Of a stretch of DNA of 7,359 bases, positions 2,139-7,305 are shown in pieces (the stretch's first letter is position 1; each line of letters begins with the position of its first letter). The translations under genes and the position numbers were made by a program. The stretch comes from Bacteroidaceae bacterium (lineage in GTDB: Bacteria; Bacteroidota; Bacteroidia; Bacteroidales; Bacteroidaceae): assembly GCA_017466965.1 (NCBI GenBank), contig JAFTTD010000244.1, positions 1 through 7,359 of the forward strand, read 5' to 3'. Under the pieces are notes generated by a model, which worked only from the letters and a program-made list of their open reading frames with translations, was not told where the DNA came from and made no database searches.

Positions 2139-4385
2139 TTACTCTTCTGAATTGTTCAGCATCACAGCCTCGTATGTCAGCTCCATGATGTTAGGTTCTT
2201 TGCCGCAGGCATAGCGGTAGCATTCGTGGCTTCTGTATAGCTTGTCAAATTCCTCTACTGCCGCAGACGGGTTTTCTGCCTTCAGCATACTGAGCGCTTT
2301 ACGGTAGTTCTCGTAGGCTGCCGCACGATTGTTGGTTAATGACTGCAGGTGCGCCATAAGCATGATGCTGGCAGGCTCGTTCCATTGTTCGCAGGCTTTC
2401 CGTATGCGTTCGAGAGCCTTGTCTGTCTCGCCTGTGCGGAATTGTGCCCATGCAAGTTCAGACTGCACTTCACGGTTTTCTTCGTCAAGATATGCCAGCT
2501 TGTGCAGATGGGGCAGGGCTTCGCCGAATTTCTCCTGAATCATCAGTGTGTTGACAAGCTTGGAAATTAGTTTGGGATTCTCGCTGTCCTGTTCCGCAAG
2601 CCATAGGTACTGCTCTTCAGCTTCATGGTAAAGCCCTAATGAATAGGCAGCCGAAGCAAGATGGTTGCGTGTCCATGTTGATTCAGGCGCAAGTTCGAAG
2701 GCAGTGCGGTAGTTGATGTATGCTTCTTGAATGTTGCCGTCTTTCTGGCAGCAGAATCCTATTTTCTGCCATAGGTCGGCATCTTCTTCAGTCATTTTCG
2801 GATTGAGGGTAAGGAACAGTTCGTAAGCGGCGCTGTAGAATCCTTTTCTCATAAGGAATTCAGCCAGCGACAGGCTTTCAGTTCCGAAGTTCTTTATCGC
2901 GGCGAATGTTCTGGCGCTGAGCGTGGAGAATGGTTCCGAACCTTTGCTTATCAGCTTCTTGAACTGGTTGTGGTACGGGTAAGAGTGGAAGAACCTGTAA
3001 AGGTCGAATATGTAGTTGCGGCGAATGTCCGACGGTTTAGCCTTTCTGCGCTTGGCATCGTCTATCAGGTTGGTAGCCTCCTCGCCCGATAGCTGTTCTG
3101 AAATTTGGGATGTGAGCATATCCTGCCCCATGCTGCCTATGATTTCAAGCATGAAGCAGAACGAGTACTTGTCGCTGCTGCAGAAAGGCGAAGTGTTGAG
3201 AATTGCGCTCATCATGGAGCCGAGCTTGCTTTCAAGCAGATTCTTTACGTTCTTCATAAGCGGATGGTCTATGTCGAAGGGGTAGAACCAGTGTGCCGTC
3301 TGCTGGAAGAACGGGCTTGATTTCAGATGGGTGAATGTGCTCATGTAAACATCGGCTCCCTCCATCTGCATATCTGCCATTTCCCGGATTTTTGCCGAAG
3401 CCTTGTCGCTGATTTCCATGCTCTTGTGCCAGTCGGGGTTTTCACCGTTCTTGATTAGTTCTGCTTCTATGTCGTCAATCTTGGTGATGTTGGGCTTCAT
3501 GTTGCTGCCCTTCATTATCGACGGTATTATGTCGTTGCGCATCTTCGTGTTGATGCTTTCGGTCATGCTGCTCAGCTGAAGCTGCATGAGTGCCGAACTG
3601 AAGTCGGTGACAAATGCCGTGTCCTCGCTGTAGAGCGACAGGCGTGAGCCTATTTCAGGATAAGCCGCCAGCCTTTCGTCATAAAGGCGTATTATGAGTA
3701 TTATGCCGATGAGCGCGCGTTGGCTCACTTCGGTGTGGTGGGTGAGATATGCGTCAAAAAGGAACATAATCTTGCGCTGGTCGAACATTTCTGTGAGAGC
3801 AAGAGTCACTGCGCTTGTCATTACGGCAATGTCGTTGGCGGTGATCATGTCTGAGTACAGTATGTTGCAGGCTGTGTCGTAGTCGCCTTTTTTCCATTCG
3901 TCGCTTGTCCACACCTTGTTGAAGAGGCTCAGCAAGGTGTCTTCATGAGCTTCTGCTATCTTCTCAAATTCGTACTTCGCAACCTTCTCCCTTAGCTGGC
4001 TGCTTTTTCTCATGCGCTCCATTTCCTCGCATTGCGCCTCAAGCGCTGTCTGAAGGCTTTCCATCGACATTCCGGCCTCGTTTGTAGTTTTCAGTGCAAC
4101 GGCATACTTGTCGCCCGGATTTTTTTTCAGCCTTATTATGCGTTCGGCTCTGTCATTTACGGAGAGAGCCTGTTGTATAAGGTTGCGATGATGCTCGCTG
4201 AACTGCGGGTCGTCTATTCCGCTCATAATGTACTTCAGCATGGCGGAATATGTGTTCCTTATGTTTTCGTATGCCTCAGTCAGCTCCCAGTTGCCGAGCG
4301 TTCTGATTTTTTCAGATATTAGTTTGAAGGCTTTTGCCAGCTTCCTTTGGCTGAGCAGTTCTTCTATGTTGTTATTGTTTTGCAT
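2139..4385 (-). CDS. Large TPR-repeat protein of unknown function
   Basis: A 748-residue soluble, predicted cytoplasmic protein without signal peptide or membrane spans. Roughly residues 503-705 form about six tetratricopeptide repeats of 34 residues. The clearest starts at about 536 (ADLWQKIGFCCQKDGNIQEA), with others near 503, 570, 604, 638 and 672. TPRs are protein-interaction scaffolds. The first 500 or so residues are mostly helical and charged, with no family I recognise. The start chosen is ATG at 4385, which overlaps the lipoprotein gene by 14 nt (its TAA lies inside the first codons, ATGCAAAACAATAA). An in-frame TTG at 4424 would add 13 residues and has AGAAGGA about 6 nt upstream, so it remains possible, but it would overlap the upstream gene by 53 nt and TTG starts are rare. 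The gene sits between the lipoprotein and helicase genes in one unit, so a shared role or a complex with the helicase is plausible but unproven. Confidence 0.85.
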   Translation of the reverse strand: MQNNNNIEELLSQRKLAKAFKLISEKIRTLGNWELTEAYENIRNTYSAMLKYIMSGIDDPQFSEHHRNLIQQALSVNDRAERIIRLKKNPGDKYAVALKTTNEAGMSMESLQTALEAQCEEMERMRKSSQLREKVAKYEFEKIAEAHEDTLLSLFNKVWTSDEWKKGDYDTACNILYSDMITANDIAVMTSAVTLALTEMFDQRKIMFLFDAYLTHHTEVSQRALIGIILIIRLYDERLAAYPEIGSRLSLYSEDTAFVTDFSSALMQLQLSSMTESINTKMRNDIIPSIMKGSNMKPNITKIDDIEAELIKNGENPDWHKSMEISDKASAKIREMADMQMEGADVYMSTFTHLKSSPFFQQTAHWFYPFDIDHPLMKNVKNLLESKLGSMMSAILNTSPFCSSDKYSFCFMLEIIGSMGQDMLTSQISEQLSGEEATNLIDDAKRRKAKPSDIRRNYIFDLYRFFHSYPYHNQFKKLISKGSEPFSTLSARTFAAIKNFGTESLSLAEFLMRKGFYSAAYELFLTLNPKMTEEDADLWQKIGFCCQKDGNIQEAYINYRTAFELAPESTWTRNHLASAAYSLGLYHEAEEQYLWLAEQDSENPKLISKLVNTLMIQEKFGEALPHLHKLAYLDEENREVQSELAWAQFRTGETDKALERIRKACEQWNEPASIMLMAHLQSLTNNRAAAYENYRKALSMLKAENPSAAVEEFDKLYRSHECYRYACGKEPNIMELTYEAVMLNNSEE

Positions 4386-5430
4386 TGTTGCAGAATGTTG
4401 TGTCAATGAGGTCTGTATATTCAATGTCTATCCTTCTCGGCTGGTCTTTTGGCACAAGCCTCTGGTCTTCAAACCATTTGAGCGCAGATTTGAATGTGAG
4501 AACGGCAAGGTTCGATGCTTGCGGAAAATGGGCTTCAAGCCTTACCGAGTCAGGGCATTGTATGCCGGCAGGCAGAAGTTTCAGCATTTCCTTCGTTGCC
4601 ACAGTGGATGTTTTGCTGTCATTGCCCTTAGCAGGCGTGCCGTACATGGAGTTGAGCCGTGCGGAGGCGATGTTGTAGGCTTGTATCAGCTTGCCTATGT
4701 CGTCGTGGCGGCGAGCTATGATGCTGTCCTTCGACAGGAGTACGGACAGGTTTATATTGTGGTTGTCTGTATTTTCAATGCTGTGTGCGCCGAGACATTG
4801 GCTGTATGCGGCATAGGGCTGGGGCAGTATGGAGCCGTCATATTGGTTGCGGTTGAGCATCTGCGCCCTGGTGCGCATGTCGTTTATCTGCGGCTTGTTG
4901 AGACTTTTCGGCTGCAGAGAGTTTGATTCAAGCATCTTGTCGGTGAAATAGTCTATGGCTGAATGTCTTGTCACAGCGAAGACCTTCTCGTTGAGCTGGC
5001 TCATGTTGGTTATGCCCGATTCGCTTGCCGACAATATGTGGAGCCTTAGCGATGTGCTTGCTACTGCTTTCACCGGCTTGTTCCCTGTTCTCATGGCTAT
5101 GGCTCTGACTATGTCGCTGGTGATGATGTCAACAACGTCTTCCGAAAGGAGAGTGTCGCAGTCTATGTCGGAATACCTTGTCTGCAATTCTATGTTTAGC
5201 CCGAGAGAATCGTATATGCCGAAGTGGTCGGCGGCATAGAACGGCAGATGGTCAAGGGTAGGGGTCAGTGCCATTGCAAGCAGTGTGGAGTCCTTTTCTT
5301 CTGCTGGTTCAGCTATAATGGTGCTGTCGTTGTCCGATACCGTATTATCGTTGCTTGAACCTGCGTTTTCATTACATGAACTGACAATTGTCAGCAGTGC
5401 AATCATTGGAACAAAGAGCAGTCTCTTCAT
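4372..5430 (-). CDS. Substrate-binding lipoprotein, NMT1/ThiY/SsuA-like (type 2 periplasmic-binding fold)
   Basis: A 352-residue predicted lipoprotein. Residues 1-18 form a signal peptide (MKRLLFVPMIALLTIVSS) with a lipobox VSSC and lipidated Cys19. A low-complexity Asn/Asp/Ser/Glu linker follows to about residue 48. From 52 on it resembles ABC-transporter binding proteins of the thiamine-precursor/sulfonate/nitrate group: LDHLPFYAADHFGIYDSLGL at 59-78 is the typical strand-helix entry, DIITSDIVRAIAM at 101-113 matches the 'D(I/V)...' ligand-loop region, and DGSILPQPYAA at 198-208 matches the second-lobe 'LPEPYA' element. The ligand is unknown. No permease or ATPase gene lies beside it, so within the window it is an orphan binding protein. 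It is the first gene of the unit with the TPR and helicase genes. ATG at 5430 follows an A-rich leader and places the signal peptide correctly. No consensus Bacteroidetes promoter was found directly upstream. Confidence 0.82.
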   Translation of the reverse strand: MKRLLFVPMIALLTIVSSCNENAGSSNDNTVSDNDSTIIAEPAEEKDSTLLAMALTPTLDHLPFYAADHFGIYDSLGLNIELQTRYSDIDCDTLLSEDVVDIITSDIVRAIAMRTGNKPVKAVASTSLRLHILSASESGITNMSQLNEKVFAVTRHSAIDYFTDKMLESNSLQPKSLNKPQINDMRTRAQMLNRNQYDGSILPQPYAAYSQCLGAHSIENTDNHNINLSVLLSKDSIIARRHDDIGKLIQAYNIASARLNSMYGTPAKGNDSKTSTVATKEMLKLLPAGIQCPDSVRLEAHFPQASNLAVLTFKSALKWFEDQRLVPKDQPRRIDIEYTDLIDTTFCNNAKQ

Positions 5431-5676: not shown

Positions 5677-6924
5677 TTATCCCTTAACAGCAGCTACGCC
5701 TGGAAGCACCTTGCCTTCGATAGCTTCGAGAAGGGCACCACCACCTGTAGAGATGTAAGACACCTGGTCAGCCATGCCGAACTTGTTGATGCAAGCCACT
5801 GAGTCGCCGCCACCGATGAGTGAGAATGCGCCGTTAGCAGTAGCCTTAGCGATAGCTTCAGCGATAGCCTTTGAACCAGCTGTGAAGTTGTCGAACTCGA
5901 ATACGCCTGCAGGACCGTTCCAGAGGATTGTCTTAGCGTTTTCGATTGCTTCCTGGAACTTAACGCGTGTGTCAGGACCTGCGTCAAGGCCTTCCCATCC
6001 TTCAGGAATAGCGTTAGCTGGGCAAATCTGAGTGTTAGCGTCGTTAGAGAATGCGTCTGCAGCAACACAGTCTGTACCGAGAACGAGGTTAACGCCCTTT
6101 TCCTTAGCCTGCTTCATGATGTCGAGAGCGAGGTCGAGCTTGTCCATCTCAACGATAGAGTTACCGATTTCGCCGCCCTGTGCCTTAGCGAATGTGTATG
6201 TCATACCACCGCAGAGAATCAAGTTGTCAACCTTGCCCATGAGGTTTTCAATGATACCGATTTGTGTAGATCCCTGTGAACCGCCCATGATAGCTGTGAA
6301 CGGACGCTTGATGTTGCTGAGGATGTTGTCAACAGCCTGCACTTCCTTCTCCATGAGAAGACCGAGCATCTTGTTGTCTGCATCGAAATAGTCAGCGATG
6401 ACTGCTGTAGAAGCGTGCTTGCGGTGAGCTGTTCCGAATGCGTCGTTGATATAGCAGTCAGCGTATGAAGCGAGAACCTTTGAGAACTCCTTCTGGCTTG
6501 CCTTCATAGCCTTCTTAGCCTCTTCGTATGCTGGGTCTGCCTTGTCGATTCCTACTGGCTTGCCTTCTTCCTCACCGTAGAAACGGAGGTTTTCAAGAAG
6601 GATAACTTCGCCTGGCTGAAGAGCTGCAGCTGCTTCCTGAGCCTTCTGGCAGTCGTCAACAAACTTGACTGCTACGCCGAGCTTTTCGCTTACTGCGTCA
6701 ACTATCTGGCTGAGAGAGAACTTAGGGTTTACCTTGCCTTTTGGCTTGCCCATGTGCGACATGATGATAAGGCTGCCACCTTCGTCCAATACCTTCTTGA
6801 GTGTAGGAAGGGCTCCGCGGATACGTGTGTCGTCAGTAATCTATCCGTTCTCATCCAATGGCACGTTGAAGTCAACGCGCACGATTGCCTTCTTGCCGGC
6901 AAACGTGTAGTCATTGATGTTCAT
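5677..6924 (-). pseudogene. pgk: Phosphoglycerate kinase, interrupted by an in-frame amber codon
   Basis: A 415-codon gene ending in TAA, the usual length for Bacteroidales phosphoglycerate kinase, the cytoplasmic glycolytic enzyme making ATP and 3-phosphoglycerate from 1,3-bisphosphoglycerate and ADP. The start is ATG at 6924. Residues 1-27 carry VRVDFNVP (15-22, with substrate-binding Asp18 and Asn20). Codon 28 is TAG (6843-6841). The same frame then continues with [12 protein letters not shown] (Arg34 is the expected substrate Arg), SHMGKPKG (56-63), ENLRF (111-115), [13 protein letters not shown] (160-172), [12 protein letters not shown] (333-344), LIGGGDSVA (369-377) and ISTGGG (391-396), so this is a nonsense codon and not a frameshift. 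A second anomaly is that the family motif GG(A/S)KVxxK reads GGSQGSTQ at 214-221, so both conserved lysines are Gln. A polypeptide started at TTG (codon 46) would lack Asp18, Asn20 and Arg34. It has its own promoter and terminator. Identity is certain. Whether it is broken, suppressed or misread is open, because pgk is normally single-copy and essential. Confidence 0.9.
6841..6843 (-). other. In-frame amber (TAG) at pgk codon 28
   Basis: The + strand reads cta, giving TAG on the coding strand, 81 nt after the first base of the ATG and exactly in frame with both flanks (LDENG before, ITDDTR after). Homologues have Lys, Gln or Asn here. AAG or CAG would become TAG by a single base change. Confidence 0.9.
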
Positions 6925-6983
6925 AATTCTTTTGTTTTTATTGTTTTATACGTATAAGTAATAATTTTGCATATAATTCCATG

Positions 6984-7140: not shown

Positions 7141-7305
7141 TTACCAGAGACCTTCGTCCCATCCGTTGCGCTCCTTCGCTGCCGGATTGCCTCTGTCATC
7201 TGGATTAATTGGTATCATATCCGAATTTCCTCCGGAAGCGGCAATCATCTGTTCTGTTTCAATTTCCATTATAACCATTTCTGGCTTCAAATAAATCTTC
7301 TTCAT
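7141..7305 (-). CDS. Small 54-residue peptide with Gly-Gly motif (Prevotella-type 'MKKxYxKPxM' peptide)
   Basis: An ORF of 54 codons from ATG at 7305 to TAA at 7141. It begins MKKIYLKPEMVIMEIETEQM, continues IAASGG (21-26) and ends NGWDEGLW (47-54). The N-terminal pattern MKK-x-Y-x-K-P-x-M followed by a Glu/Ile-rich stretch and a small-residue/Gly-Gly site is one I associate with abundant short unannotated proteins in Prevotella and relatives. The Gly-Gly at 25-26, after a hydrophobic/acidic leader, resembles double-glycine leader peptides cut by C39-peptidase exporters; that would release a 28-residue acidic, Trp-containing piece. This is inference, and no exporter or modifying enzyme lies in the window. 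It has no classical signal peptide and no membrane segment. The leader is A-rich without a Shine-Dalgarno site. It is followed by a good hairpin terminator, which supports a real transcription unit. The upstream promoter must lie beyond the window. Confidence 0.72.
   Translation of the reverse strand: MKKIYLKPEMVIMEIETEQMIAASGGNSDMIPINPDDRGNPAAKERNGWDEGLW

Follow-up and report, generated by a model that had tools for sequence, protein, structure and literature searches.

An in-frame TAG and companion codon changes in a Bacteroidales phosphoglycerate kinase gene are probably base errors in the contig

The 7,359-nucleotide stretch of DNA analyzed here (termed the window herein; contig JAFTTD010000244.1 of a Bacteroidaceae bacterium) carries a gene for phosphoglycerate kinase (PGK) with a TAG codon early in its reading frame, which raises the question of whether this stop is an error, is read through, or marks a gene that is truly inactive. 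The gene and its unusual codons are given below; the listed relatives are the best 120 of 8000 scored proteins, and the genome loci are the best 80 kept.

5677..6924, minus strand: pgk (phosphoglycerate kinase), 415 codons plus TAA with one internal TAG, identified by its translation and PF00162
6904..6906, minus strand: codon 7, Thr; Asn in 79, Lys in 40, and Ser in 1 of the 120 listed relatives
6841..6843, minus strand: in-frame TAG, codon 28; Lys in the 99%-identical protein P0001
6271..6276, minus strand: codons 217-218, Gln-Gly, in the catalytic loop; Lys-Val in 120/120 listed proteins and 80/80 genome loci
6262..6264, minus strand: codon 221, Gln, in the catalytic loop; Lys in 119/120 listed proteins (Glu in 1) and 80/80 genome loci

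The pgk frame runs from 6924 to 5677 on the minus strand, starts with ATG, ends with TAA, and contains a single internal stop; translation of 5677..6924 revealed neither a frameshift nor a second stop. As originally predicted, and as seen in the sequence given, TAG at 6841-6843 is codon 28 of this minus-strand gene, where it interrupts the frame that begins at the start used by the family. The 370 amino acids (aa) after the TAG match PF00162 with 420.7 bits (Pfam cut-off, 27). At codon 28, the best 120 of 8000 scored relatives have Lys (108), Asn (11), or Gln (1), and a stop in pgk is absent from all 80 alignments to the best genome loci kept. Re-initiation downstream of the TAG was considered and rejected: the next listed start is a TTG at codon 46, which would yield 370 aa and leave out the first 45 residues.

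The closest catalogued protein among the best 120 of 8000 scored is P0001, which is 99% identical to the window's PGK and probably comes from the same species, judging from the two sequences. The two differ at six residues, 7, 28, 217, 218, 221, and the last one. At the last residue, the listed relatives next in similarity have the window's residue and not that of P0001, so this sixth difference looks like a change in P0001 itself. The other five leave the window with the odd codons K7T, K28stop, K217Q, V218G, and K221Q relative to P0001, three of them within a five-codon stretch. The gene had been described as otherwise intact; K217Q, V218G, K221Q, and a residue 7 unlike that of all 120 listed relatives contradict this. 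Nor is the sequence flanking the TAG a perfect copy of the family, as had been supposed, since residues of the catalytic loop that the relatives keep are altered. In a count of conserved columns, the window's PGK breaks 4 of 301, one of which (residue 318, Asp) it shares with P0001. At least 3 of the 301 columns are broken in 12 of the 120 listed PGK proteins, so odd residues are not rare among catalogued PGKs.

The altered loop reads GGSQGSTQ in the window versus GGSKVSTK in the Bacteroidales form. In the solved enzymes 1php and 7zy7, the positions aligned with residues 217 and 221 are the two lysines of the GG-x-K-V-x-x-K loop; judged by motif spacing, the human PGK1 counterparts would be K215 and K219. 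The window has Gln at both positions. Passages of two studies of the human enzyme describe K215 and K219 as contacting the transferring phosphate group (PMC5594045, PMC6040698), and one of these also reports that V216, within loop 214-219, affects domain closure (PMC6040698). Because both loop lysines are missing and the loop residue V218 is changed, little activity would be expected of a readthrough product. In length, frame, neighborhood, and identity to P0001 (99%), the window's gene resembles bacterial PGK (PF00162) in its Bacteroidales form, from which it differs by the internal TAG, the GGSQGSTQ loop, and the unusual residue 7. Other origins of the loop change were also considered. A patch of foreign DNA was rejected, given that the codons surrounding the loop are ones that relatives use too. 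An exact search for the odd loop DNA in viral contigs gave 0 matches. A change templated by a nearby repeat was rejected as well: 5677-6950 is free of inverted repeats of ≥10 bases, and none of the listed direct repeats covers the loop.

The reading that had been of most interest at the outset was that the TAG is read through or reassigned by an amber suppressor tRNA, giving full-length PGK. Some crAss-like phages that infect Bacteroidetes recode TAG to Gln. What the window's pgk has in common with them is an in-frame TAG; it differs in that the window has one such TAG only, in a cellular housekeeping gene and at a codon that is mainly Lys in relatives (Gln in 1/120 listed). The frame is indeed open on both sides of the TAG, as readthrough would require, yet K217Q, V218G, and K221Q would remain in the product, and since it would lack both catalytic-loop lysines, readthrough as the source of a working enzyme is strongly disfavored; we consider it extremely improbable. 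The window also gives no sign of TAG reassignment. All visible gene ends had been reported to be TAA, and this held for all five frames checked, although TAA-only stop use is uninformative by itself. A search for other genes with an in-frame TAG found 0 in the four other frames of the window, a result that is partly by construction because table-11 stops delimited the frames; in length, however, the helicase (656 aa) and tetratricopeptide repeat (TPR) protein (761 aa) frames described below equal those of near-identical relatives. There are no tRNA genes within the window, and a loose pattern for a tRNA with a CUA anticodon gave 2 matches in the genomes of four relatives, compared to 9 for the reversed control, with neither locus being a tRNA according to ARAGORN. 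The changes in the loop weigh more against readthrough than this tRNA search does.

Three further genes lie downstream of pgk on the same strand and served for comparison:

4372..5430, minus strand: gene for an NMT1/SsuA-like substrate-binding protein, open frame
2139..4424, minus strand: gene for a TPR protein, open frame, 761 aa
164..2134, minus strand: gene for an IGHMBP2-family helicase, open frame, 656 aa

The order pgk, NMT1-like, TPR, helicase is also found at two loci (L001 and L054) in metagenome-assembled genomes of Bacteroidales or Bacteroidaceae, and, as far as sequence and gene order can tell, the window very likely shows the orthologous locus for pgk in an uncultured member of the Bacteroidales. 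Because its pgk has these three genes as neighbors, as is usual, a decaying extra copy is unlikely. Relative to their closest catalogued proteins, the helicase has 5 residue differences and the TPR protein 8, one of the latter being due only to the reading of a TTG start. The remaining 12, each of which may be a change in either of the two proteins, were compared at the protein level with near-identical relatives; 8 can be explained by transitions only, 3 require a transversion (G>T in two, T>A or C>A in one), and the last is ambiguous, with T>G among its possible readings. Neither gene shows an excess of odd changes like that of pgk. As a rough figure, errors spread evenly over the contig would give a dozen or more residue changes in the other genes, and none is evident; any errors would therefore have to be local, as might happen where coverage is thin or reads end poorly. 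In the helicase, 18 of 379 conserved columns are broken by the window (106 of 120 relatives used, with longer fusions dropped), and in the TPR protein 3 of 71; these counts reflect the distance of the relatives, most of which have ∼69% identity for the helicase and 35-48% for the TPR protein.

As had been expected for this enzyme, pgk is usually single copy in the relatives. A match was found in 376 of 399 genomes sampled from the family of G001 (the Bacteroidaceae bacterium that carries locus L001), with one match in 366 and two in 10; some of these ten have weak best scores and may represent split genes. One stop-bearing pgk was present among the family matches listed, and none was seen among the matches listed for order-level genomes (149 genomes, 146 with a match). 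The single case, in genome G319 (contig C7, locus L109, match 3226-1988), has one in-frame TAG at another codon; its loop is normal, and its alignment contains no further stop. Same-species DNA was not found among the 399 family genomes sampled: among the best 80 kept, the closest genome-contig loci reach ≤89% protein identity to the window's PGK, three genomes of G001's genus have 82-83% pgk DNA identity, and the four best-scoring TPR DNA matches have 66-67% identity over parts of the gene. The comparison with P0001 is thus one of proteins only and not of DNA.

The kind of base change gives a further line of evidence. On the coding strand, the minimal changes at the five odd codons are three A>C, one T>G, and one A>T; all are transversions, and 4 of the 5 belong to the A>C/T>G class. 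Viewed on the plus strand, the changes at codons 7, 217, and 221 are T>G; at codon 218, the coding-strand T>G is preceded by AGG. Codon 221 may hide a second, silent change (the relatives' Lys codon is AAG in 57/82 and AAA in 25/82). On the coding strand, CAA is the context of all three A>C changes and GGT that of the T>G, so that each time the new base equals the base two before it, which may be chance.

According to passages of one study of Illumina data, A-to-C is the most frequent error in data from the early Genome Analyzer (GA), and A/C and G/T exchanges in either direction are the most frequent errors on the HiSeq, at 29.2% and 26.8% (PMC3334598). Parts of a second study state that substitution errors tend to cluster and are favored by motifs ending in GG, and that in one HiSeq data set T has the highest error rate and G is the preferred wrong base (PMC4787001). 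The dominance of A>C/T>G, the clustering of three changes, and the AGG before one of them resemble these profiles, as far as those passages describe them; the single A>T is a difference, and not all of the published data sets covered there favor A>C. If the window was sequenced on such a platform, the fit to an Illumina error profile would be good for the plus-strand T>G changes (codons 7, 217, and 221) and fair for the class as a whole.

As for natural mutation, a mutation accumulation study found 87-96% transitions (PMC6116381). That study overstates the natural transition bias and is a poor yardstick, since its transitions come from a mutS mutator strain. In part of the results of an rpoB study, each class of single-nucleotide variant except GC>CG was observed at least 24 times, with 214 isolates carrying mutations (PMC11084559). 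Five transversions by natural mutation would thus be unusual but are not excluded. A mutator with a disrupted mutT gene and an AT-to-CG bias, which that study also describes (PMC11084559), was rejected as an explanation; it should also have marked the helicase and TPR genes, where only 1 of the 12 differences could fit.

Sequencing or assembly error is the best supported of the options that had been put forward, which also included a recent nonsense mutation and amber readthrough. The TAG and at least four further changes in pgk probably arose as base errors in a contig that is probably metagenomic and thinly covered. This reading is favored because the gene differs from P0001 at five odd codons, mostly by A>C/T>G transversions, while the differences in the neighbors are mostly transitions, and because pgk lies in its usual place without a frameshift or another stop. 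Local base errors may have entered the contig consensus at pgk, producing the TAG and at least four further changes, and the organism's real pgk would then be an ordinary, intact housekeeping gene. We infer the technical origin of the changes, the low coverage, and the metagenomic nature of the contig. Several points run against this reading. The A>T falls outside the favored class, and the errors would have to be local, since the two other genes compared show no such excess. The G/T exchange class is not unique to pgk, with G>T occurring twice among the 12 neighbor differences. In the same HiSeq set in which T has the highest error rate, A and C have the lowest, and miscalls to C are rare in GAII and HiSeq R1 reads, according to the passages cited (PMC4787001). 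Natural mutation can also yield such changes, as the part of the rpoB study cited indicates (PMC11084559).

The main rival to error is a genuine inactive allele, in which the changes are real and a stop plus a damaged loop mark a recent pseudogene or a short-lived population variant. A stop combined with the loss of both loop lysines is how an inactive allele might look, the two neighbors compared show no obvious damage, in keeping with a defect in pgk only, and the pgk of G319 likewise has one internal TAG, at a different codon, although that TAG could equally be an assembly error. On the other hand, pgk is present in nearly all of the family genomes sampled, almost always once, and the glycolytic step is central; moreover, all five changes alter or end the protein, none is an insertion or deletion, and most belong to a common miscall class. 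On balance, we regard a real inactive allele as rather unlikely. It is very unlikely that this gut Bacteroidales strain truly has no PGK activity and bypasses or outsources the glycolytic step; if true, it would be notable for a gut anaerobe to have lost this near-universal step. A PGK without catalytic activity that is retained for a nonenzymatic role could account for the placement of three of the five odd codons in the loop, with nearly everything else equal to P0001. The stop at codon 28 would nevertheless cut this protein, the TTG start would leave 370 aa without the N-terminal 45 residues, and the loop is shared by none of the 120 listed relatives, making such a role highly improbable. 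When one in-frame stop turns up in a housekeeping gene from a metagenome, the whole gene should accordingly be considered: here, the conserved residues altered alongside the stop point to error and also speak against rescue by readthrough.

Some other PGK arrangements were observed in the order of G001. Three loci, L114 (780-3167, genome G495), L115 (807-3191, G480), and L117 (758-3142, G452), contain fused double PGK frames, in which one frame of 794-795 aa encodes a head-to-tail pair of PGK domains, each having the GGSKVSTK loop. Genomes G432 and G545 have two adjacent pgk matches with long open frames (796 and 818 aa). In the window itself, an open frame of 54 aa lies at 7141-7305 on the minus strand; its product starts with MKKIYLKPEM and contains an ASGG stretch. 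It gave no Pfam or NCBIfam match and presumably resembles the short Bacteroidales peptides with a double-glycine site.
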